A DNA stretch of 64,000 nucleotides from Euzebyales bacterium. Lineage in GTDB: Bacteria; Actinomycetota; Nitriliruptoria; Euzebyales; JAHELV01. The first letter of the stretch is position 1. Every line of letters begins with the position of its first letter. The position numbers and the translations under genes are program-made. The notes under the pieces are model-generated. The model saw only the letters and a list, made by a program, of their open reading frames with translations, was not told where the DNA came from and made no database searches. Shown here one piece after another: positions 19,600-47,085 of the stretch. The DNA is taken from positions 62,001 through 126,000 of the forward strand of contig DASUUK010000074.1 of NCBI GenBank assembly GCA_036374135.1. Direction: 5' to 3'.

Positions 19600-20286
19600 A
19601 TGGCAGGCACGCTAGCGCTGGTGGGTGCGGCCGTCGCGTGGGCGTTCTCGGCGCGGCTGCTGCGCGACTACCGCGCACGTCGTCGGGCGCACGCGCTGGC
19701 CTGGGGCGCGTCACTGCTGCTGTACGCGATCGGGATGGTGGCACTGGCGGCGGGGCTGCTGATCGGCTGGTCCGCGACCGCGTACGGGATCTACTGGTTC
19801 ACCGGCGCGCTGGTCAACGTGCCGCTGCTCGCGGTGGGGGAACTGCACCTGCTCGTGCCTGCCCGCGCCCAGTGGTGGTGGGCGGTCGCGTCGGCGGTGG
19901 TGATGGTCGCCCTCGTCGCCGTGCTGGTCTCGCACTTCGATCCCTCGGCGCTGGGCGCGGCCACCGCCGACGGTGGCGTCCCGCTCGGCGCCGACGTCCT
20001 GGGCGGCCAGCCGGCGTACGCCGCCCTCACACCACTCACGCTGACCGGGACGCTGGTCGTGCTGGTCGGCACCGTCTGGTCGGCGGTGCGGCGACGGCGC
20101 CCCGCCGTCCTGCTCATCGCACTCGGCGTGGCCGTCGCGGCCTCGTCGTCGACCTTCGTGCGCAACGATCTCGATGCGTTGGTCCCGGTCGCACTGACCG
20201 CCGGGGTCGCCATCATGTACGCCGGCTTCCGCGCCACGGCCGCGCGCCGCGGCCCGCTCCCCACGGGGCGACGCTCCGCCCTCTGA
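19600..20286 (+). CDS. Hypothetical polytopic membrane protein
   Basis: A 228-residue protein with about seven predicted membrane helices (for example ALAWGASLLLYAIGMVALAA, WWWAVASAVVMVALVAVLV, LIALGVAVAASSSTFV). I do not recognise the family. The ATG lies 7 bases after TAGGCT (19587-19592), so it is probably leaderless. The stop codon is only two bases from the first hairpin of the DUF559 cassette, which could terminate its transcript. Confidence 0.75.
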   Translation: MAGTLALVGAAVAWAFSARLLRDYRARRRAHALAWGASLLLYAIGMVALAAGLLIGWSATAYGIYWFTGALVNVPLLAVGELHLLVPARAQWWWAVASAVVMVALVAVLVSHFDPSALGAATADGGVPLGADVLGGQPAYAALTPLTLTGTLVVLVGTVWSAVRRRRPAVLLIALGVAVAASSSTFVRNDLDALVPVALTAGVAIMYAGFRATAARRGPLPTGRRSAL

Positions 20287-20288
20287 TC

Positions 20289-20328
20289 TGGGGAGACCTG
20301 TCAACGCCCAGCGGCGATCGCCTCCCCG
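20289..20328 (+). repeat. 40-bp hairpin repeat R1 (outer left)
   Basis: Starts TGGGGAGACCTGTCAACGCC; the ends GGGGAG and CTCCCC pair. It shares the invariant core GTCAACGCC with R2, R3 and R4, and R2 follows exactly 62 bases later. Confidence 0.8.
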
Positions 20329-20350
20329 TTCCGACGCCGCGGCGCACCCA

Positions 20351-20390
20351 TGGGGAAACCTGTCAACGCCCAGCGGCGACCGTGTCCCCA
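20351..20390 (+). repeat. 40-bp hairpin repeat R2 (inner left)
   Basis: Starts TGGGGAAACCTGTCAACGCC and ends GTGTCCCCA; TGGGGA pairs with TCCCCA. It has the same orientation as R1 and a 22-base spacer. Confidence 0.8.
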
Positions 20391-20474
20391 CCCCAGGGTT
20401 CGACGACGTCGGGCGTCCACAGACGCATCGTGGGCGGCTGGCACGTCCGGTCACGTGGCGCCAATCATGCGGTC

Positions 20475-21395
20475 ATGCACTGGTCGGCCCGGCTCCATGA
20501 ACACGCGCGACGACACCGCAACGTCTTCGCGCTGCGTTGGGCTCCCCTGATCGGCACGACACCGGCGGCCGTCGACGCCAAAGCTGAGCGCGAAGGTTGG
20601 CGACGGCCCTACCCGGGTGTCGTCCTGTTGCCCGGCGCCCCGTGGGATCACCAAACCGACCTGGTCGCCGTCCAGACGGCGCTTCGGTGTGACGCGGCGG
20701 CCCGCGGCCCATCCGCGGCGTGGCTCTTTGGCCTCGAGTCGCGGCCACCCGCACGACCGCACCTGCTGCTCCCGCACGCTCAGCGGACGGTCGTTGAGGC
20801 AGGCTTCGTCCGAAGGTCGCGACACGTCACACCGGCTGACCGGATGACGATCGACGGCATCGTCACGCTCACCCCGTGCTTCTGGCTCATCTCCCATGCG
20901 GGCGACGTCGGCTTCGACGCGCTGCTGTCGCTGGCGCTCGATGCGCGCCAGTGCCGGCTGATCGACTTTGCGGATGTCGCTGATCGCCTGACGTCGATGC
21001 CGCGTGTGGCCGGCAGGAAGAGGATCGAGCGCGTACTCCGGCACGTCCAGCTCGACGGCAGCGACTCGATGTTCGAATCGCTCGTCCGTCAACGGCTTGC
21101 CGAGGCAGGCCTGGTGCCAAGCGCGGCACCCATGCCGGTGCATTTGCCGAACGGACGCACCGTCCATGTCGACATCGCGTTCCCAACCGAGCGCGTCGCG
21201 GTCGAGTGCATCGGATTCGTGGCACATGGCTCGAGGCGACAGCTCGACCGGGACGCGCGTCGCGAGAACGCCATCGCACTCGGCGGCGACTGGCTGGTGC
21301 TGAAGCTCACATGGGATCGGTTCCAGCACGATTGGGATGGATTCCTCAGAGAGCTCATGCAGGCGCTGTCTGCGCGGCGCGAACGCCTGGGCTGA
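20475..21395 (+). CDS. DUF559 (Vsr-like) endonuclease-domain protein with AbiEi-like N terminus
   Basis: A 306-residue protein. Residues about 15-90 resemble the AbiEi-type winged-helix antitoxin domain (GTTPAAVDAKAEREGWRRPYPGVVLLPG, then AAWLFGLE). Residues about 198-290 are a DUF559 PD-(D/E)xK-like nuclease domain with Glu201, Asp233 in VDIAFP, Glu244 in VECIG and His251. The usual E-x-D-G is E-C-I-G here, so activity is uncertain. Codons are less GC-biased than in neighbours (TTT, GAA and CGA are frequent), suggesting acquisition. ATG 20475 lacks a ribosome-binding site. It is flanked on both sides by inverted pairs of 40-bp hairpins. Confidence 0.8.
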   Translation: MHWSARLHEHARRHRNVFALRWAPLIGTTPAAVDAKAEREGWRRPYPGVVLLPGAPWDHQTDLVAVQTALRCDAAARGPSAAWLFGLESRPPARPHLLLPHAQRTVVEAGFVRRSRHVTPADRMTIDGIVTLTPCFWLISHAGDVGFDALLSLALDARQCRLIDFADVADRLTSMPRVAGRKRIERVLRHVQLDGSDSMFESLVRQRLAEAGLVPSAAPMPVHLPNGRTVHVDIAFPTERVAVECIGFVAHGSRRQLDRDARRENAIALGGDWLVLKLTWDRFQHDWDGFLRELMQALSARRERLG

Positions 21396-21465
21396 ACCGC
21401 CGGCGGACGGCGGGCCCGTAGGCGCCCTGACGAATCCGGTGCTGACCACCGGACGTGGTGCGCTG

Positions 21466-21505
21466 CGGGGACACCATTGCCGCCCGGCGTTGACAAGCCT
21501 CCCCA
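21466..21505 (-). repeat. 40-bp hairpin repeat R3 (inner right)
   Basis: On the minus strand starts TGGGGAGGCTTGTCAACGCC and ends GTGTCCCCG; TGGGGA pairs with the end. It is inverted relative to R1 and R2. Confidence 0.8.
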
Positions 21506-21527
21506 CCTTCGCCTCACCGCGCCGACG

Positions 21528-21567
21528 CGGGGCGATGTTCGCCGCCCGGCGTTGACGAGCCTCCCCA
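21528..21567 (-). repeat. 40-bp hairpin repeat R4 (outer right)
   Basis: On the minus strand starts TGGGGAGGCTCGTCAACGCC and ends CGCCCCG. It lies 62 bases from R3 and 9 bases past the stop of the aldehyde dehydrogenase gene, where it could also end that transcript. Confidence 0.8.
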
Positions 21568-21576
21568 ATGAGGGCC

Positions 21577-23070
21577 TCAGGGGTCGATGTCGACGTAGAC
21601 GTTCTTGAGTTCGGTGTAGGCGCGCAGCGACTCGACGCCCAACTCGCGGCCGTAGCCCGACTGCTTCCAGCCACCGAACGGGGCGCCCGTGTGGACGCTG
21701 GAGTTGCTGTTGACCGACACCACGCCGGCCTCGATGTCGCGGGCGATGCGGTGGGCGCGGCCGAGGTCGCGCGTCCACACCGACGCCGACAAGCCGTACG
21801 GCGTGTCGTTGGCCAGTGCGACCGCCTCGGCCTCGTCGCCGAACCTCAGCACCGTGACGACCGGACCGAAGATCTCCTCGCGCACCGCGGTCATGTCGGC
21901 CGTCGCGTCGACCACGACCGCGGGGCGCATGAAGAAGCCGGGGCGGTCGAGCACCTGGCCACCGCACGCGACCCGCGCGCCCTCGCTCCTGGCGGACGCC
22001 ACGTAGTCGAGCACCGTCGCGCGCCGGTCGTCGTTGATCAGCGGACCCATCTGCGTGTCGTCGTCGGCCGGGTCGCCGACGCGGATGGCCTCGGTCGCGG
22101 CGACGAGTGCCTCGACGAACTCGTCGTGGACCTCGTCGGCGACGATGACCCGGCTGCGCGCGCAGCAGTCCTGGCCGGCGTTGCCGAAGACCGCGGCGGC
22201 TCCGGCGGTCGCGGCGGCCTCGAGGTCGGCGTCGGCGAAGATGACGTTGGGCGACTTGCCACCGAGCTCGAGCGTCACGCGCTTCAGTGACGCGGCCGCG
22301 CGCTGCTGGATGCCGATCCCGACCTCGGTCGAACCAGTGAAGGCGATCTTGCGCACCCGTCCGTCCGACACGATCGACTCGCCCACGGTGCTCCCCCGGC
22401 CGGGGAGCACGTTGACGACTCCTGCGGGCACGCCGGCCTCGTGGAGGACGTCGGCGATCTCGAGCGCCGATGCGGGGGTCAGCAGCGCGGGCTTGAGCAC
22501 GACCGCGTTCCCGGCCGCCAGCGCCGGGGCGAGATTCCATGTGGCGATCAGTCCCGGAAAGTTCCACGGCGTGATCAGCCCGACGACGCCCATCGGCTGG
22601 CGCAGGGTGTAGTCGAACCCGCCCGCCGGGACGGACAGCGTCTCGCCGCCGAACCCGCGGATCACTCCGGCGTAGTAGTCGAAGACGTCGGCGACCGACG
22701 CCATCTCCGCCCGCGCGTCGGCGATCGGCTTGCCGACGTCGCGCGACTCGATCTGCGCGAGGTGCTCGTGGCGATCGCGTGCCAGCCCCGCCGCGTCCCG
22801 CAGGACCGCGGCGCGTTCCGATGCGGTCCGCCGCCCCCACCCGGGCGCGGCGTCGACCGCGGCGGCGATCGACCGATCGACGTCTTCGGGTCCGGCCAGC
22901 GCGACCTCGAGCCACGGCGTTCCCGTCGCGGGATCCTCGACGTGATGGGTGTCGCCGGAGGCGGCGGCGCGCCGCGACCCGTCGATGAACAGACCCAGTC
23001 TTCTCAGTCCAGCGGAGCCGGTCCTCCGCGTGCTTCGTGGAACCAGGCTCCGCGAATGCTCCATGACCAC
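21577..23070 (-). CDS. NAD(P)-dependent aldehyde dehydrogenase
   Basis: A 497-residue enzyme of the ALDH superfamily with the NAD-binding and catalytic motifs TPWNFPG, LKPALLTPASAL, FTGSTEVG, general base Glu in LELGGKSPN and nucleophile in GQDCCARSR. A second cysteine sits beside the expected one. The natural N terminus in this family would be close to LFIDGSRRAAASG, but no ATG or GTG is found there; the frame starts at ATG 23068 or 23062 and its first residues are encoded by hairpin repeat C. With the neighbouring glutamine synthetase-like, GntR, SDR and amidotransferase genes it probably oxidises an aminoaldehyde in polyamine or related catabolism. Confidence 0.88.
   Translation of the reverse strand: MVMEHSRSLVPRSTRRTGSAGLRRLGLFIDGSRRAAASGDTHHVEDPATGTPWLEVALAGPEDVDRSIAAAVDAAPGWGRRTASERAAVLRDAAGLARDRHEHLAQIESRDVGKPIADARAEMASVADVFDYYAGVIRGFGGETLSVPAGGFDYTLRQPMGVVGLITPWNFPGLIATWNLAPALAAGNAVVLKPALLTPASALEIADVLHEAGVPAGVVNVLPGRGSTVGESIVSDGRVRKIAFTGSTEVGIGIQQRAAASLKRVTLELGGKSPNVIFADADLEAAATAGAAAVFGNAGQDCCARSRVIVADEVHDEFVEALVAATEAIRVGDPADDDTQMGPLINDDRRATVLDYVASARSEGARVACGGQVLDRPGFFMRPAVVVDATADMTAVREEIFGPVVTVLRFGDEAEAVALANDTPYGLSASVWTRDLGRAHRIARDIEAGVVSVNSNSSVHTGAPFGGWKQSGYGRELGVESLRAYTELKNVYVDIDP
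23005..23062 (+). repeat. 55-bp dispersed hairpin repeat, copy C (inside ALDH 5' end)
   Basis: Contains AGTCCAGCGGAGCCGGTCC, CGCGTGCTTCGTGG and AACCAGGCTCCGCG. CGGAGCC pairs with GGCTCCG. It supplies the start region of the aldehyde dehydrogenase reading frame on the opposite strand. Confidence 0.65.
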
Positions 23071-23095
23071 CGTCCCGACCGAAGTTCCGTCGGCT

Positions 23096-24023
23096 CTACA
23101 TCCGCTCGAAGCCGCGGTAGCGCTCCCAGTCGGTCACCACGCGCCGGAACGCCGCGAGCTCGACGCCCGCCATGTTGCGGTAGTGCCCGACCACGTCTTT
23201 GCCGAACGCATCGTGTGCCAGGTCGCTGGAGGAGAACAGCTGCGCTGCGTCGCGCAGGTTGTCCGGCACCCGTTCGTTGTCGCTCTCGTAGGCGTTGCCC
23301 TCGAAGGCGTCTTCGAGCTCGAGCTCGTCATCGATGCCGCGCAGCCCTGCCGCGATCATGGCGGCGAATGCGAGGTACGGGTTGACGTCGCCACCGGGCA
23401 CGCGGTTCTCCACACGCATGCCCGCCCCGTGGCCAACGACGCGGAAGGCGCAGGTCCGGTTGTCGAAGCCCCACGCGGCGACGGTCGGCGCGAAGCTGCC
23501 CTCGATGTAGCGCTTGTGGCTGTTGATGTTGGGCGCGTAGAACAGCACCAGCTCACGCACCGCGGCGATCTGTCCGGCGACGAACTGCCGGAACATCTGC
23601 GACATGTCGTGCCCGTCGGCGAACACCGCCTCGCCATCGTCACCGCGGAGGCTGAAGTGCAGGTGGCACGAGTTGCCCTCGAGCTCGTTGAACTTCGCCA
23701 TGAACGTCAGCGACCGACCCTCCTGCGACGCGATCTCCTTCGCCGCGTTCTTGTAGACGGTGTGGTTGTCGGCCATCGTCAGCGCGTCGCTGTAGCGGAA
23801 GTTGATCTCGTTCTGGCCGTAGTTGCACTCGCCCTTGGCCGACTCGACGGGCATCCCCATGCCCTCCATCGCGTTGCGGATGCGCCGCAGCAGCGGCTCG
23901 ACCTTGGTCGTGCCCAGCATCGAGTAGTCGACGTACGGGTCCTGCGACCCTGCGCAACCTGCGTTCCGCAGCGCGGTCCTCGTTGTCGTCACGCTTCGTG
24001 GACTCGTTCGCGCGGTCGCTCAT
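23096..24023 (-). pseudogene. Glutamine synthetase-like (gamma-glutamyl-amine synthetase type) gene, truncated and frameshifted
   Basis: Positions 23992-23096 encode about 298 residues of a glutamine synthetase catalytic domain (GECNYGQNEINFRYSDAL, NSCHLHFSLRG, NSHKRYIEGSFAP, the catalytic region NRTCAFRVVGHG, RVENRVPGGDVNPYLA). A full enzyme has about 450 residues; the N-terminal beta-grasp domain is missing. A good start with AGGAACAAC before ATG lies at 24021-24023, but that frame (MSDRANESTKRDDNE...) is out of phase with the catalytic part; a shift near 23945-23965 would join them. It therefore carries both a deletion and a frameshift, or an assembly error. The rest of the locus is intact. 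Confidence 0.75.
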
Positions 24024-24209
24024 GACGTTGTTCCTACAAGGCGGATCGGCCGCCGGTCGGCGGCTGAACGTCCGTTGTCGTACCGTTGAACATCTCGCTC
24101 CGTGACGAACGCCGTCGACGCGGACCGTGATGACACGGCACTATGGCTGTGGCAGACGCCCCAACCAATGGTGCCAGCGCGAATGCCCGACAGCCATGAG
24201 CTGGCTCCG

Positions 24210-24229
24210 ATGGTCCATGGACGGACCAT
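24210..24229 (+). promoter_or_regulatory. Inverted repeat, possible operator of the GntR-type regulator
   Basis: ATGGTCC and GGACCAT form 7-base arms around a 6-base spacer. It sits in the divergent gap, and TACTGT (24229-24234), a possible -10 box of the regulator gene, overlaps its right edge. Position suggests autoregulation. Confidence 0.5.
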
Positions 24230-24267
24230 ACTGTTGAGGGCGATGGTCTGGATGTCAAGGGAATGCG

Positions 24268-25044
24268 ATGGCCAGCTCAGCAACCGAACGGTCGACGAAG
24301 CCGACGGCGAAGAAAGCAGCCGCCAGCACGGTATCACTGGACGCGGTGCTGCGACCGGTCCGCTCCGGCAACGCCTTCGAAGAAGCGATCCAGCGGATCA
24401 TGCAGGCCATCAAGCTCGGCGCCGTCACGACCGGAGAGCGGCTGCCGCCGGAACGCACGCTCGCCAAGCGGCTCGGCATCAGTCGGGTCACGCTGCGTGA
24501 AGCGCTCCGCGCACTGACCGACGCCGGCCTCGTGGAATCGCGGCGCGGTCGCAGTGGCGGGACCTTCATCACCTACCGCCCCGAGGACGCCCAACCACCG
24601 GCGGCACCGACCGACAAGACCGACATCCGCCTCGAGCTCGAGGACAGCCTGGTGCTGCGCTCGGTGCTGGAGCCCGGCGCGGCGGAGGCCGCCGCGCGGC
24701 GCGAGCAGGACGAGAACGCCCAGGCGATGCTGCACGACCGCGTCGAGGCGGTTGCCGCCACGACGACGCGCCAGAGCCATCGCCTGGCCGACGCGCGTCT
24801 GCACCTGGCCATCGCCGAGCTCAGCGGATCGGTCAGCCTGATCGCCGCCGTCGCCGACGTGCAGATGAGCATGACGGATCTGCTCGAGGCGATCCCGGTC
24901 GTGCCTCACAACATCGAGCGCTCCCACGAGCAGCACGCCGCCATCGCGAACGCGATCCTGACGAGCCGCCCCGAGGACGCTCGACGGTACATGCAGGAGC
25001 ACGTGAGCGGAACCGCCGCGCTGCTCCGCGGATTTCTTGCTTGA
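24268..25044 (+). CDS. GntR/FadR-family transcriptional regulator
   Basis: A 258-residue regulator with an N-terminal winged helix (FEEAIQRIMQAIKLGAVTTGERLPPERTLAKRLGISRVTLREALRAL) after a 30-residue basic tail, and a C-terminal all-helical FCD effector domain (ELEDSLVLRSVLEPGAAEAAARR, HEQHAAIANAILTSRPEDARRYMQEHV). ATG at 24268 follows AAGGGAATGCG. It lies between the divergent glutamine synthetase-like and SDR genes and probably controls this catabolic locus. Confidence 0.88.
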   Translation: MASSATERSTKPTAKKAAASTVSLDAVLRPVRSGNAFEEAIQRIMQAIKLGAVTTGERLPPERTLAKRLGISRVTLREALRALTDAGLVESRRGRSGGTFITYRPEDAQPPAAPTDKTDIRLELEDSLVLRSVLEPGAAEAAARREQDENAQAMLHDRVEAVAATTTRQSHRLADARLHLAIAELSGSVSLIAAVADVQMSMTDLLEAIPVVPHNIERSHEQHAAIANAILTSRPEDARRYMQEHVSGTAALLRGFLA

Positions 25045-25081
25045 CTCATGCCCAGGACCGCGCACAATGGACCGTTCCCAT
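25041..25081 (+). promoter_or_regulatory. Promoter and candidate operator upstream of the SDR gene
   Basis: TTGACT (25041-25046) and CACAAT (25063-25068), 16 bases apart, form a plausible promoter. An imperfect palindrome, ATGGACCGTTCCCAT (25067-25081), sits at its right edge and shares the ATGG...CCAT ends with the inverted repeat at 24210. Confidence 0.45.
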
Positions 25082-25122
25082 AGCATTTCGGCCATCAGCC
25101 GAATGACGGCGAGGAACGGGAC

Positions 25123-25896
25123 ATGCGCCTGCAGGGCCGAGTAGCGTCCATCACAGGGTCGGGCAGCGGGATCGGCCGGGCTGCGGCGCTGCTCTTCGCG
25201 GCGGAGGGCGCTCGCATCCTCGTGTCGGACGTCGACGTCGAGGCCGGCAAGGCGACGGTCGCCGCGATCAGCGACCGCGGGGGCGAGGCGCACTTCGTCG
25301 CCGCTGACGTCAGCCGCGCGGACGACGTGGAGGCGCTGTACACCGAAGGCGAGAAGCTGTTCGGCAAGGTGGACGTCCTGTTCAACAACGCCGGCATCTT
25401 CGACGGTGCGGACGGGTCGGTGACCGACACGGCGGAGGGCGTCTGGGATCGCGTCGTCGACGTCGACCTCAAGGGCGTGTTCCTCTGCTGCAAGTACGGC
25501 GTGCCGGCGCTCCAGCGCGCCGGCGGCGGCGTCATCGTCAATGTGGCGTCGTTCGTGTCGTGGATGGGGGCCGCCACCCCGCAGATCGCCTACACCGCCG
25601 CGAAGGGTGGGGTGCTCTCGATGACGCGCGAGATCGCCGTGGAGTTCGCACGGTCCGGCATCCGCGCCAACGCGCTGTGTCCCGGGCCGGTCACGACACC
25701 GCTGCTGTCCGAACTGCTCGCCGACGAGGACCGCCGTCAGCGGCGCCTGATCCACATCCCCATGGGCCGGTTCGGCAGGGCGGAGGAGATGGCGAAGGCG
25801 GCACTGTTCCTCGCCAGCGACGAGTCCTCGTTCATGACCGGCGCCTCGCTGCTGATCGACGGCGGCATCACCGCCGCGTACATCACGCCGGAGTGA
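25123..25896 (+). CDS. Short-chain dehydrogenase/reductase
   Basis: A 257-residue SDR with the nucleotide-binding TGSGSGIGRAAALLF, NNAG, the catalytic YTAAK (Tyr and Lys) and a serine in NVASFVSW. Its C terminus FMTGASLLIDGGIT is typical. The substrate is unknown; placement with ALDH and glutamine synthetase-like genes suggests an alcohol or aldehyde in amine catabolism. A possible GntR operator overlaps the promoter. Confidence 0.88.
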   Translation: MRLQGRVASITGSGSGIGRAAALLFAAEGARILVSDVDVEAGKATVAAISDRGGEAHFVAADVSRADDVEALYTEGEKLFGKVDVLFNNAGIFDGADGSVTDTAEGVWDRVVDVDLKGVFLCCKYGVPALQRAGGGVIVNVASFVSWMGAATPQIAYTAAKGGVLSMTREIAVEFARSGIRANALCPGPVTTPLLSELLADEDRRQRRLIHIPMGRFGRAEEMAKAALFLASDESSFMTGASLLIDGGITAAYITPE

Positions 25897-25991
25897 CCGT
25901 GCCGGCGCTCGGCACCGCGCACGACTGGACCGGCCGGGCGTCGGACCTCGGCGGCCTCGGCACCGTGCTCCGTCGCGGACGTTGACGCACC

Positions 25992-26669
25992 GTGCGCGCG
26001 CTGTTCATCGCACACGAGGCCGAGGCGCCACCCGGTCACCTCGGCGACGCGGCCGCCCGGCGTGGGATGGACGTCGAGGTGTGCGACGTGTGGGACGGCG
26101 CCACACTGCCCGCACCAGACGTGCACGATCTGATCGTGCCCCTGGGGTCCGCCGACGCCGCGTACGACGACGCGGTTCCGTGGCTGGCGGCCGAGCTCGA
26201 CCTGCTCCGCGAAGCCGAACAGGTCGGCACGCCGGTCTTCGGCGTCTGCTTCGGCGCGCAGGCGCTCGCGCGTGCACTCGGCGGTCAGGTGTTCCGGGCG
26301 GACGAGCCGGAGGTGGGCTGGCGGACCATCGACACGAGCGCACCCGGGCTGATCGCGGCCGGGCCCTGGCTGGAGTGGCACTTCGACGCGCTGCGACCGC
26401 CCGACGGCGCGAGCGTGCTCGCCCGATCGCGGTCCGGCGTGCAGGCGTGGCTGCGGGGTCGGGCGCTGGGTGTGCAGTTCCATCCCGAGGTGACCCCCGG
26501 GATCATCGACGGCTGGATCGCGTCGGGCGCCGACAAGCTCCGGGCGACAGGGGTCGACGCTGACCGCCTGTCCGACGAGACGCGCCGCAACGCCGACCGG
26601 GCCCGCGTTGCGGCCCACGATCTGTTCGACCGCGTGCTCGACGCGCTGGCCGTGGATCCGCCGCGGTGA
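25992..26669 (+). CDS. Class I glutamine amidotransferase
   Basis: A 225-residue protein with the catalytic triad motifs GVCFGAQAL (Cys) and FHPEVTP (His, Glu) of the class I amidotransferase fold. Start is GTG at 25992 (RALFIAHEAEAPPG). It is not a PuuD-type hydrolase by its motifs but resembles stand-alone GATase1 proteins found near gamma-glutamylation genes; it may hydrolyse a gamma-glutamyl product. It lies 95 bases after the SDR gene. Confidence 0.82.
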   Translation: MRALFIAHEAEAPPGHLGDAAARRGMDVEVCDVWDGATLPAPDVHDLIVPLGSADAAYDDAVPWLAAELDLLREAEQVGTPVFGVCFGAQALARALGGQVFRADEPEVGWRTIDTSAPGLIAAGPWLEWHFDALRPPDGASVLARSRSGVQAWLRGRALGVQFHPEVTPGIIDGWIASGADKLRATGVDADRLSDETRRNADRARVAAHDLFDRVLDALAVDPPR

Positions 26670-26742
26670 CCGTCGCGGTCGTGTCGGCGAGTGCGCCAGC
26701 GACTCGTTGATGCGCCGGGAACCGCGTGGGAGGATCGCGCCC

Positions 26743-28787: not shown

Positions 28788-28881
28788 TCCCACCATCCCG
28801 CGGACGGGGAGCCGCCATGTCCGGGCCGGCGCGCTCCCCGGCGGCGCGTGGCCGTGGTGCCTGCGACGGCTGTGCGTGCGA

Positions 28882-42361: not shown

Positions 42362-43522
42362 ATGAAGCTGTTCGACACGCGCAGCGGCCGGCCACGCACG
42401 CTGATCGCCGGCCACACCATCCGCCTGTACGTCTGCGGCATCACGCCGTACGACGCGGCACACCTCGGGCACGCGGCGACGTACGTCGCGTTCGACGTGC
42501 TGATCCGGGCACTCGAGCACCGGGGTCACGTGGTGCGCTACGTCCGCAACGTCACCGACGTCGACGACGACATCCTGCGGACGGCCCGCGAGCGCGACGT
42601 CGACTTCCTCGAGCTCGCCGAGTCCGAGGTGGCGCGCTTCGACGCCGATCTCCGGGCACTGGGCTGCCGCGAACCCGACGTGGCGCCCCGCGCCACCGAT
42701 ACGGTGCCCGCGATCGTGACCGCCGTATCCGGCCTGGTCGAGCGCGGCGCCGCGTACGTGCTCGACGACGGTCGCGTCTACTTCGACATCGCGATCGCCG
42801 AGCAGTTCGGCGCACTGTCCCGGCTCGATCGCGAGCGCATGCTGGCCGAGTTCGCGGAGAAGGGCGGCGATCCCGACGCGCCCGGCAAGCGCGACGCACT
42901 CGACTTCCTGCTGTGGCAGCCCGGCCGGGACGGCGAACCGACGTGGGAGAGCCCGTGGGGACCGGGCCGGCCCGGCTGGCACATCGAGTGCTCGGTGATG
43001 GCGATGGAGCACCTCGGCGGCGTCATCGACATCCACGGGGGCGGCAACGACCTGGTCTTCCCCCACCACGAGGCCGAGATCGTGCAGTCCGAGCACCTGA
43101 CCGGGCAGGGCCCGTTCGCGCGGTTCTGGCTGCACACGGGCATGGTCGGGCTCGACGATGTCAAGATGAGCAAGTCACTGGGCAACCTCGTGTTCGCCCA
43201 CGACCTGCTCGGCCGCTTCCCCGGCCCGGCGATCCGCACCTACCTGTTGGCCAACCACTACCGGGCGACCTGGAGCTACGACGAGGAACTGATGGTGGCA
43301 TCGACCGGCCGGCTCGCCCGCTGGCGGACGGCGGCCGCCACGAGTGGCCGGGACCTGACCGATGAGCAGGCGGTCGTTGCCGCGCTCGACGACGATCTGG
43401 ACACCCCCGCGGCGCTCGACGTGCTGGACCGCATGGCGAACGCCGGGCACGGTGCGTCGCTGTGCGCATCCGCCGCGCTGCTCGGCATCGACCTGGACGA
43501 CCAGCCGACACCCACGGCGTGA
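42362..43522 (+). CDS. mshC: MshC-like cysteine ligase (mycothiol biosynthesis)
   Basis: A 386-residue class I aminoacyl-tRNA synthetase fold with HIGH-type HLGHAATY and KMSKS. It lacks the anticodon-binding domain expected of a full CysRS (about 460 residues), and its conserved text (CGITPYDAAHLGHAATY, FAEKGGDPDAPGKRDALDFLLWQPG, GRPGWHIEC, SLGNLV) matches MshC, which ligates cysteine to GlcN-Ins. A true CysRS should be elsewhere. ATG lies 8 bases after TAGGCT (42348-42353). The Mca gene 6 kb away supports mycothiol use. Confidence 0.82.
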   Translation: MKLFDTRSGRPRTLIAGHTIRLYVCGITPYDAAHLGHAATYVAFDVLIRALEHRGHVVRYVRNVTDVDDDILRTARERDVDFLELAESEVARFDADLRALGCREPDVAPRATDTVPAIVTAVSGLVERGAAYVLDDGRVYFDIAIAEQFGALSRLDRERMLAEFAEKGGDPDAPGKRDALDFLLWQPGRDGEPTWESPWGPGRPGWHIECSVMAMEHLGGVIDIHGGGNDLVFPHHEAEIVQSEHLTGQGPFARFWLHTGMVGLDDVKMSKSLGNLVFAHDLLGRFPGPAIRTYLLANHYRATWSYDEELMVASTGRLARWRTAAATSGRDLTDEQAVVAALDDDLDTPAALDVLDRMANAGHGASLCASAALLGIDLDDQPTPTA

Positions 43523-43545
43523 TCCGACAACGCTAGGTTTGGCCC

Positions 43546-45270
43546 ATGCCAGGTCTCACGCAGCAGTTGGAGGAGCGGCTGGCGCCGGCGTTCGCCGCCG
43601 TCGCCGGCACCGACGTCGATCCGGTGATCCGCCGTTCGCGTCACACCGACTTCCAGGCCGACGGAGCGCTCGGCCTGGCGCGCCGCCTGCGGGAGAACCC
43701 ACGCGCGATCGCCGAGCGGATCGTCGAGCGGGCCGACCTGGACGACCTGTGCTCTGAGGTCGCGGTGTCGGGTCCGGGCTTCATCAACCTGACCCTGTCG
43801 GCGGGCGCCCTGGGTCGGATGCTGGCCGCCATCAGCCACGACGAGCGCCTGGGCGTGCCGGTCACCGACCACCCGGAGACGGTGGTCATCGACTACTCCG
43901 CGCCGAACGCGGCGAAGGAGATGCACGTCGGTCACCTGCGGTCGACGATCATCGGCGACGCCGCGGTGCGCCTGCTCGAATGGGTCGGTCACACGGTGGT
44001 CCGCGAGAACCACATCGGCGACTGGGGCACGCCCTTCGGGATGCTGATCGAGCACCTGCTCGACATCGGCGAGGCCGAGGCGGCGCACAAGTTGTCGGTC
44101 GGCGACCTCAACGGCTTCTACCGGGCGGCACGGCGGAAGTTCGAGGCCGACCAGGTCTTCCAGGAGCGGTCGAGGCAGCGGGTCGTGCTGCTCCAGCGCG
44201 GCGATCCTGCGACCTTGCGGCTGTGGCACACGCTGGTCGAGGAGTCGCAGGCCTACTTCCTGGCCGTCTATGACCGGCTCGGTGTGCGGCTGACCGCCGA
44301 TGACTTCGTCGGTGAGAGCGTCTACAACGATCAGCTGCAGGCGATCGTCGACGAGCTCGACAAGCTCGACCTGCTGCGGGTCAACGACGCGGCGCGGTGC
44401 GTGTTCCCCGGCGGGTTCCACAACCGCAACGGCGAACCGCTGCCGCTCATCGTGCAGAAGCGCGACGGGGGGTTCGGGTACGCGGCGACCGACCTGGCCA
44501 CCATCCGCGAGCGCATCTACGACCAGGGCGCCACGCGCCTGCTGTACGTTGTCGGACTGCCCCAGCGCCAGCACCTCGAGATGGTCTTCGCCACTGCGCG
44601 CGACGCCGGGTGGCTGACGCCGCCGGCCCGCGCGGAGCACGTCGGGCACGGCGCGATCCTCGGTTCGGACGGCAAGATCCTGCGGACGCGCGCCGGCGCG
44701 TCGATCAAGCTGATCGACCTCCTCGACGAGGCCGTCGCCCGCGCCGCCGACGTCGTGGCCGCCAAGAACCCCGACATGGACGATGCGACCCGGGCGACCG
44801 TCGCGGAGGCGACCGGCGTCGGCGCGGTCAAGTACGCCGACCTGTCGACCGACCGGGTGAAGGACTATGTCTTCGACTACGACCGGATGCTGGCGTTCGA
44901 GGGCAACACCGCGCCCTACCTCCAGTACGCCAACGCCCGCATCCGGTCGATCTTCCGGAAGCTGGGCCGGCCGGCGTCCACCGATGTGGCCGAGGTCGTG
45001 GTCGCGGCGCCTGAGGAACGGGCGCTCGCGATCGAGCTGCTGTCGCTGCCGGGCGTCATCGACGAGGTCGTCGAGACGATGGAGTTCCACCGGCTCGCGA
45101 CCTACCTGTACGGCCTCGCGACGGCGTTCACCGGCTTCTACGAGAACTGCGCGGTATTGCGGTCCGAGGGGCGGGTGCGAGACAGCCGCCTGGTCCTTTG
45201 CGACCTGACGGCGCGGACGCTTGCGCTGGGCCTGGGGCTGCTGGGCATCACCGCGCCCGAGCAGATGTGA
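43546..45270 (+). CDS. argS: Arginyl-tRNA synthetase
   Basis: A 574-residue class I synthetase with N-terminal add-1 domain, HVGH signature in SAPNAAKEMHVGHLRST, the ATP site, LKTRAG-like LRTRAGASIKL replacing KMSKS, and the C-terminal anticodon domain (NTAPYLQYANARIRSIFRKL, FYENCAVL). The ATG lies 6 bases after TAGGTT (43534-43539), a leaderless layout. It ends before a strong bidirectional hairpin. Confidence 0.95.
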   Translation: MPGLTQQLEERLAPAFAAVAGTDVDPVIRRSRHTDFQADGALGLARRLRENPRAIAERIVERADLDDLCSEVAVSGPGFINLTLSAGALGRMLAAISHDERLGVPVTDHPETVVIDYSAPNAAKEMHVGHLRSTIIGDAAVRLLEWVGHTVVRENHIGDWGTPFGMLIEHLLDIGEAEAAHKLSVGDLNGFYRAARRKFEADQVFQERSRQRVVLLQRGDPATLRLWHTLVEESQAYFLAVYDRLGVRLTADDFVGESVYNDQLQAIVDELDKLDLLRVNDAARCVFPGGFHNRNGEPLPLIVQKRDGGFGYAATDLATIRERIYDQGATRLLYVVGLPQRQHLEMVFATARDAGWLTPPARAEHVGHGAILGSDGKILRTRAGASIKLIDLLDEAVARAADVVAAKNPDMDDATRATVAEATGVGAVKYADLSTDRVKDYVFDYDRMLAFEGNTAPYLQYANARIRSIFRKLGRPASTDVAEVVVAAPEERALAIELLSLPGVIDEVVETMEFHRLATYLYGLATAFTGFYENCAVLRSEGRVRDSRLVLCDLTARTLALGLGLLGITAPEQM

Positions 45271-45330
45271 CACGGCGGAGCCACGCCGGCGGCGGGATGA
45301 CGTCGGCGACGGCGCGACCACGACCGACCT

Positions 45331-45377
45331 GATCCGGACAGCACGGCCACCGTCGCCGGTGGCGTCGTGTCCGGATC
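45331..45377. terminator. Bidirectional terminator between argS and ettA
   Basis: Outer arms GATCCGGACA and TGTCCGGATC (10 bases) enclose an inner stem GCCACCG/CGGTGGC. It lies between two convergent genes and can end both transcripts. Confidence 0.8.
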
Positions 45378-45408
45378 GGCTCGCTCAGGCGGCGGAGGCC
45401 CGCGGGGT

Positions 45409-47085
<1,677 letters not shown>

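Follow-up and report, generated by a model that had tools for sequence, protein, structure and literature searches.

A nuclease gene between two tandem pairs of palindromes

The window, by which we mean the whole stretch of 64,000 nucleotides analyzed here, contains a cassette at positions 20289–21567 in which palindromic repeat units stand on both sides of a nuclease gene. Its features are as follows.

20289..20327, + strand: palindromic repeat unit 1 of the left array
20351..20389, + strand: repeat unit 2 of the left array, starting 62 bp past the start of unit 1
20475..21395, + strand: nuclease gene (306 aa), with an AbiEi-like N-terminal part and a Vsr-like REase_MTES_1575 domain (residues 200–298)
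21465..21505, − strand: repeat unit of the right array, whose orientation is opposite to that of the left array
21527..21567, − strand: repeat unit of the right array, 62 bp from the neighboring unit

The four units are 39–41 nt long, share the core GTCAACGCC and form two tandem pairs around the gene. As the preliminary description had reported, the pairs are mutually inverted and the start-to-start distance is 62 bp in both; the positions and the spacing were confirmed. Its remark that the cassette leaves no excess DNA between the flanking genes also held. The left pair begins 3 nt past the stop of the gene at 19600–20286, and the right pair ends 10 nt short of the stop of the aldehyde dehydrogenase gene at 21577–23070; the cassette neighbors are thus this enzyme and a 228 aa protein without a Pfam match. 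Within the window, the core GTCAACGCC has 8 occurrences where 1.06 would be expected by chance, and the only exact matches to TGGGGA-NNCNN-GTCAACGCC within the window were the four cassette units.

The units had been described as hairpins. We observed that the palindromes are real, but their pairing is imperfect: each has a GGGGA/TCCCC stem and a core that is conserved and largely unpaired, and the RNA folding z-scores ranged from −0.25 to −1.96, little better than those of shuffles. A search of Rfam gave no match for the repeat element with E up to 1, so the element was not assigned to a known structured RNA class.

Domains and distribution of the nuclease

Next, we analyzed the protein encoded in the cassette. 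The AbiEi model of PADLOC matched it with E 3.1e-11 and matched all 17 homologues as well, which bears out the AbiEi-like N terminus proposed earlier and places in the protein a winged-helix domain of the kind found in type IV AbiE; Pfam AbiEi_1 gave E 0.0019 only. PF18741 (REase_MTES_1575) matched the window protein with E 1.7e-5, which is below the curated cut-off, and was found in 17 of the 17 aligned homologues (best E 2e-11). The putative catalytic residues S198, D233, H251 and D260 were invariant across these homologues, a pattern expected of a working nuclease, whose activity is predicted. Profile match and conserved residues together agree with a Vsr-like REase_MTES_1575 (DUF559) nuclease. 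The profile of 3r3p (I-Bth0305I) matched weakly (E 0.2). Foldseek with an AlphaFold model (pLDDT 76, built from a three-sequence alignment) returned weak matches to AbiEi, AbaSI, XisH and Vsr, none with E < 0.001.

The family occurred in 161 of 297 sampled Actinomycetota genomes, where its members are common orphans. No homologue was found on plasmids, and a profile scan of GTDB contigs gave three loci only.

Dispersal of the repeat in the genome of the window

The repeats are not confined to the cassette, as had been supposed. The genome of the window (G000) contained 52 units in 22 arrays over many contigs, which adds about 20 places to the cassette. Twenty of the arrays carry 2–4 units each, mostly spaced by 60–63 bp and in a few cases by 72–73 bp. 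The length from GGGG to CCCC was identical in 50 of the 52 units; all 52 start with [TC]GGGG and have no GTAG tag, and stem position 5 varies on both sides (A-T in 36 units, C-G in 6). With gene calls taken from the ORF picks made in this analysis, the arrays lay mostly at gene 3′ ends, 13 of them in sense no more than 50 nt past a stop codon; about five were antisense only. Two single units of the family, at L038 4892 and L040 4543, lay inside predicted ORFs and may represent intragenic copies or wrong gene calls.

In each of the four genomes tested (G000, G001, G032 and G113), the cassette repeat was dispersed essentially only in its own genome. Matches to the core with up to one mismatch numbered 44 in G000 and one each in three sister species, and scanning GTDB for the tandem core gave no occurrence elsewhere. 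The cassette repeat of G001, CTGGGGACGNATCTCACCG, had 21 copies (up to two mismatches) in that genome compared to 0–5 in its sisters; that of G032 had 31 copies compared to 1–5 in three relatives; and that of G113 had 22 copies, mostly in pairs exactly 72 bp apart, compared to none in four other genomes. The Y1 tyrosine transposase domain (PF01797) had no match in these four genomes, that is, no RAYT-type transposase was found there, and the data fit poorly with a RAYT encoded elsewhere in the genome.

Concerted change between sister species

The locus was then compared with the genomes G001, G002 and G003. In the sister species G001, the same two genes enclose a syntenic nuclease gene, 62% identical and interrupted by one in-frame stop, which is accompanied by the same double arrays with another core. 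This difference was genome-wide, the core being TCTCACCG in G001 and TGTCAACG in G000, with equal unit length. Core position 11 was G in 44 of 50 G000 units and C in all 24 G001 units, and position 15 was A in 49 of 50 and C in 23 of 24, respectively; because the units of each set were retrieved with a pattern derived from the respective core, these counts favor the consensus, but the core difference is directly visible at the shared sites. At least five other G001 arrays stood at intergenic sites shared with G000; in every case the two species carried their respective versions, and one of the sites was occupied in G002 as well. As the G001 arrays are at the same sites but carry their own genome-wide core, the arrays and the nuclease locus change together. 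The sites are therefore partly old, and their sequence changes in concert. Furthermore, as several array sites are common to the species, not all of them call for ongoing spread.

One G001 array (L193, between two genes) had no counterpart in the window, where the aligned position is near 45.4 kb. At that site, 43496–45409, the window has other sequence of about 1.9 kb that includes a 574 aa ORF but no array.

A second nuclease cassette beside tRNA-Met was present in G001 and truncated in G002, where several units remained. A single feature was observed at this site in the window.

28806..28839, + strand: solo hairpin GGGGAGCC...GCTCCCC, adjoining tRNA-Met at the site of the second cassette in G001

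We infer that this hairpin is a relic of the second cassette. In G001, the tRNA region beside the second cassette (L112 15800–16794) is partial and is followed by a relaxase-like ORF, as if a mobile element had integrated. Both close nuclease homologues of G001 (L112 4214–5119 and 14795–15640) have one in-frame stop, through decay or assembly error; with such a stop in the closest orthologue, an active nuclease is not assured in G001. A clean empty site for the window cassette was not seen in these comparisons, as G003 lacked a larger interval, matching window 20253–26727, with a partial core at the junction.

Association of flanking repeats with the nuclease family

For each nuclease homologue, the left flank was compared with the right one in either orientation, against shuffles and neighboring control genes. 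As a result, the same repeat was found on both flanks at 50 of 74 nuclease loci across Actinomycetota, compared to 3 of 169 control genes (4 of 182 in an earlier control set); the 50 are an upper estimate of the true brackets, as a few positives may be low-complexity sequence instead of hairpins. By sample, two-sided repeats were present at 9 of 10 loci in the genus, 15 of 24 in the class and 26 of 40 in the phylum sample, and about one-third of the nuclease homologues had no flanking repeat. When only inverted matches were counted, 20 of 40 loci and 1 of 92 controls were positive. The flanks matched better in inverted orientation at 19 loci and in direct orientation at 13. The inverted arrangement, which the preliminary description had noted, was therefore dropped as a general rule. 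The bracketed loci included tandem (16) and divergent (2) layouts of the neighboring genes.

Flank similarity between loci exceeded the background only for fairly close proteins, indicating that every locus carries a repeat of its own. Similar sequence on both flanks was also found for the other two nuclease homologues in G000; together with the survey across the phylum, this indicates that the bracket goes with the gene family and is not peculiar to the site in the window. Repeats occurring everywhere without relation to DUF559 genes had been named beforehand as an observation that would speak against a partnership; dispersal was indeed found, which a REP-like system would predict, but the lack of relation was contradicted by the survey. 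The suggested likeness to REP sequences and RAYT, with a Vsr-like protein as the partner, is thus well supported by the flank survey, the genome-specific dispersal in four genomes and the absence of Y1 transposase matches there.

Tandem spacing

Across the phylum, the tandem distances near nuclease genes clustered at 60–64, 72, 81–82 and 93 bp. A Rayleigh test at 10.4 bp gave R 0.64 and p ~2e-4 for 21 distances, a result that is dominated by the 60–64 bp cluster, followed the trial of several periods and includes some related loci and few independent families. The spacings are thus suggestive of helical phasing, which would place bound proteins on a single face of the DNA duplex. Proteins of the AbiEi family bind inverted repeats that come in pairs, and AbiEi antitoxins autoregulate by such binding (PMC7319586). 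The operator of the AbiEi relative Rv2827c consists of two tandem pairs of 23 bp repeats, with 13 bp within a pair and 4 bp between the pairs (PMC7319586); from these lengths, we calculated a pair period of 63 bp.

Relation to known systems

The nuclease and its repeats work like a REPtron (RAYT/TnpAREP with REP; PMC8266576, PMC3733652). In both, a gene is bracketed by short palindromes, and these recur across the same genome, often as dimers, at intergenic sites and gene 3′ ends; their sequence is specific to the cognate enzyme. However, the enzyme type and the GTAG tag place the present system outside the REPtrons. The REPtron enzyme is an HUH Y1 tyrosine transposase, whereas here it is an AbiEi/Vsr-like nuclease (PF18741 and AbiEi matches), and REPtron palindromes have GTAG at the foot, which G000 units do not. 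In addition, the units here stand in phased tandem, mostly at 61–62 or 72 bp. The CGTC-tagged REPs (PMC3733652) are likewise palindromes scattered over genomes that have no dedicated RAYT partner, but they were reported without any dedicated transposase, whereas the repeat here brackets a candidate partner gene.

The N-terminal part resembles in sequence the winged helix of AbiEi antitoxins of type IV AbiE, for which tandem inverted-repeat binding is known (PMC7319586). In contrast to that system, the domain is fused here to a nuclease and the sites are genome-wide, not at one promoter; no adjacent AbiEii (DUF1814) nucleotidyltransferase toxin was found among the window neighbors, which sets the locus apart from AbiE. 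With Vsr-fold nucleases and EDxHD homing endonucleases, such as I-Bth0305I, the protein shares a Vsr-like nuclease domain by a weak profile match. Unlike these, it has no intron or intein host and, in place of one homing site, is associated with numerous dispersed repeats; its cleavage is predicted.

MTES_1575 has been named as a Vsr-family REase in a survey of HEPN toxins, without any link to repeats (PMC3710099). In the open-licence literature, which leaves out most subscription papers, we found no report tying these nucleases to dispersed palindromes and no role given to the proteins. Within that literature, the partnership is apparently undescribed and new in kind; an enzyme with its own dispersed palindromes is known as a general idea. 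The association supplies these orphan nucleases with a candidate DNA target that is readable from sequence. For palindromes scattered through RAYT-less genomes, the association also provides a dedicated partner enzyme; the want of such a partner was remarked for other repeats by Di Nocera 2013 (PMC3733652).

Proposed mechanism and alternative explanations

Starting from the observed repeats, their dispersal and spacing, their association with the nuclease family and their species-specific concerted change, we favor, with some reserve, a two-part system in which a protein composed of an AbiEi-type reader and a Vsr-like nuclease acts at tandem palindromes and spreads or homogenizes the arrays. 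The winged-helix domain, joined to the nuclease in one protein, would read recognition sites made of tandem palindromic units about six helical turns apart (about seven, eight or nine in other families), so that the bound proteins would sit on one face of double-stranded DNA. One pair of arrays brackets the gene, and the others occupy intergenic sites, mostly gene 3′ ends. The nuclease would nick or cut the DNA in or close to the arrays, and the array type would be copied from site to site when another array serves as the template for repair. Arrays would consequently spread, expand in tandem and stay alike genome-wide while the specificity of the protein drifts. That the protein binds the arrays is probable; that it cuts there and drives the copying may or may not be so, with about equal weight on each side. 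We are likewise evenly divided over the broader proposal that this is a widespread selfish or domesticated element of Actinomycetota, an independent counterpart of RAYT/REP, in which an AbiEi-Vsr nuclease reads helically phased palindromes, set in tandem in double-stranded DNA, and drives their spread and genome-wide homogenization. Should the nuclease indeed drive the concerted change of ~20 sites, the system would give bacteria a case of molecular drive that can be tested directly.

The strongest alternative is a pure regulator that co-evolves with its sites. The arrays would then be operators of the AbiEi-like protein in a self-regulatory or host role (autorepression, gene-end insulation and chromosome organization were considered), the nuclease would move none of them, and sites and protein would co-evolve through selection and drift. 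Autoregulation through inverted repeats by AbiEi antitoxins (PMC7319586), the array just upstream of the nuclease gene, the conservation of several array sites between species and a phased spacing suited to cooperative binding all agree with this. Nevertheless, we consider it unlikely, as a second array lies downstream of the gene, some 20 more lie by gene 3′ ends and not at promoters, and array presence differs among species at some sites. Moreover, selection would have to track every change of specificity at ~20 sites simultaneously, and the conserved nuclease domain would be left without a role.

A defence or toxin-antitoxin function, in which the repeats mark self DNA or serve as decoys and their dispersal is secondary, would suit the AbiEi-type similarity of the protein to defence-system models and the weak matches of 4 of the 17 homologues to an NCBIfam anti-phage model. 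It is highly improbable in view of the neighbors in the window (an unassigned protein and the aldehyde dehydrogenase), neither of which is a nucleotidyltransferase toxin, and of the concentration of arrays at gene 3′ ends, where self-marks would be evenly spread. The least probable of the three is that the arrays are ordinary terminators or 3′-end elements of the neighbors, with the nuclease gene merely lying between two convergent genes. Most arrays are indeed close behind a stop codon, often in sense. However, the bracket follows the nuclease family phylum-wide, tandem and divergent layouts included, the repeat sequence is family-specific with fixed tandem spacing, RNA folding barely exceeds that of shuffles, and some arrays are antisense only. 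An interim view of the arrays as sense-strand 3′-end elements or terminators was abandoned once the flank survey and the comparison with the sister species had been made.

Other repeats in the genome of the window

A further nuclease homologue in G000 (L052 1495–2355, on C33) has flanks that share ATCACGAGGTGGTTGTC-type repeats. These seemingly form a second repeat family in this genome, and by eye they resemble those at L120 in G002 and L119 in G003. At L183 (C39:15166 and 15225 in G000), two G001-like cores were observed 59 bp apart, perhaps the remnant of another or older repeat family.
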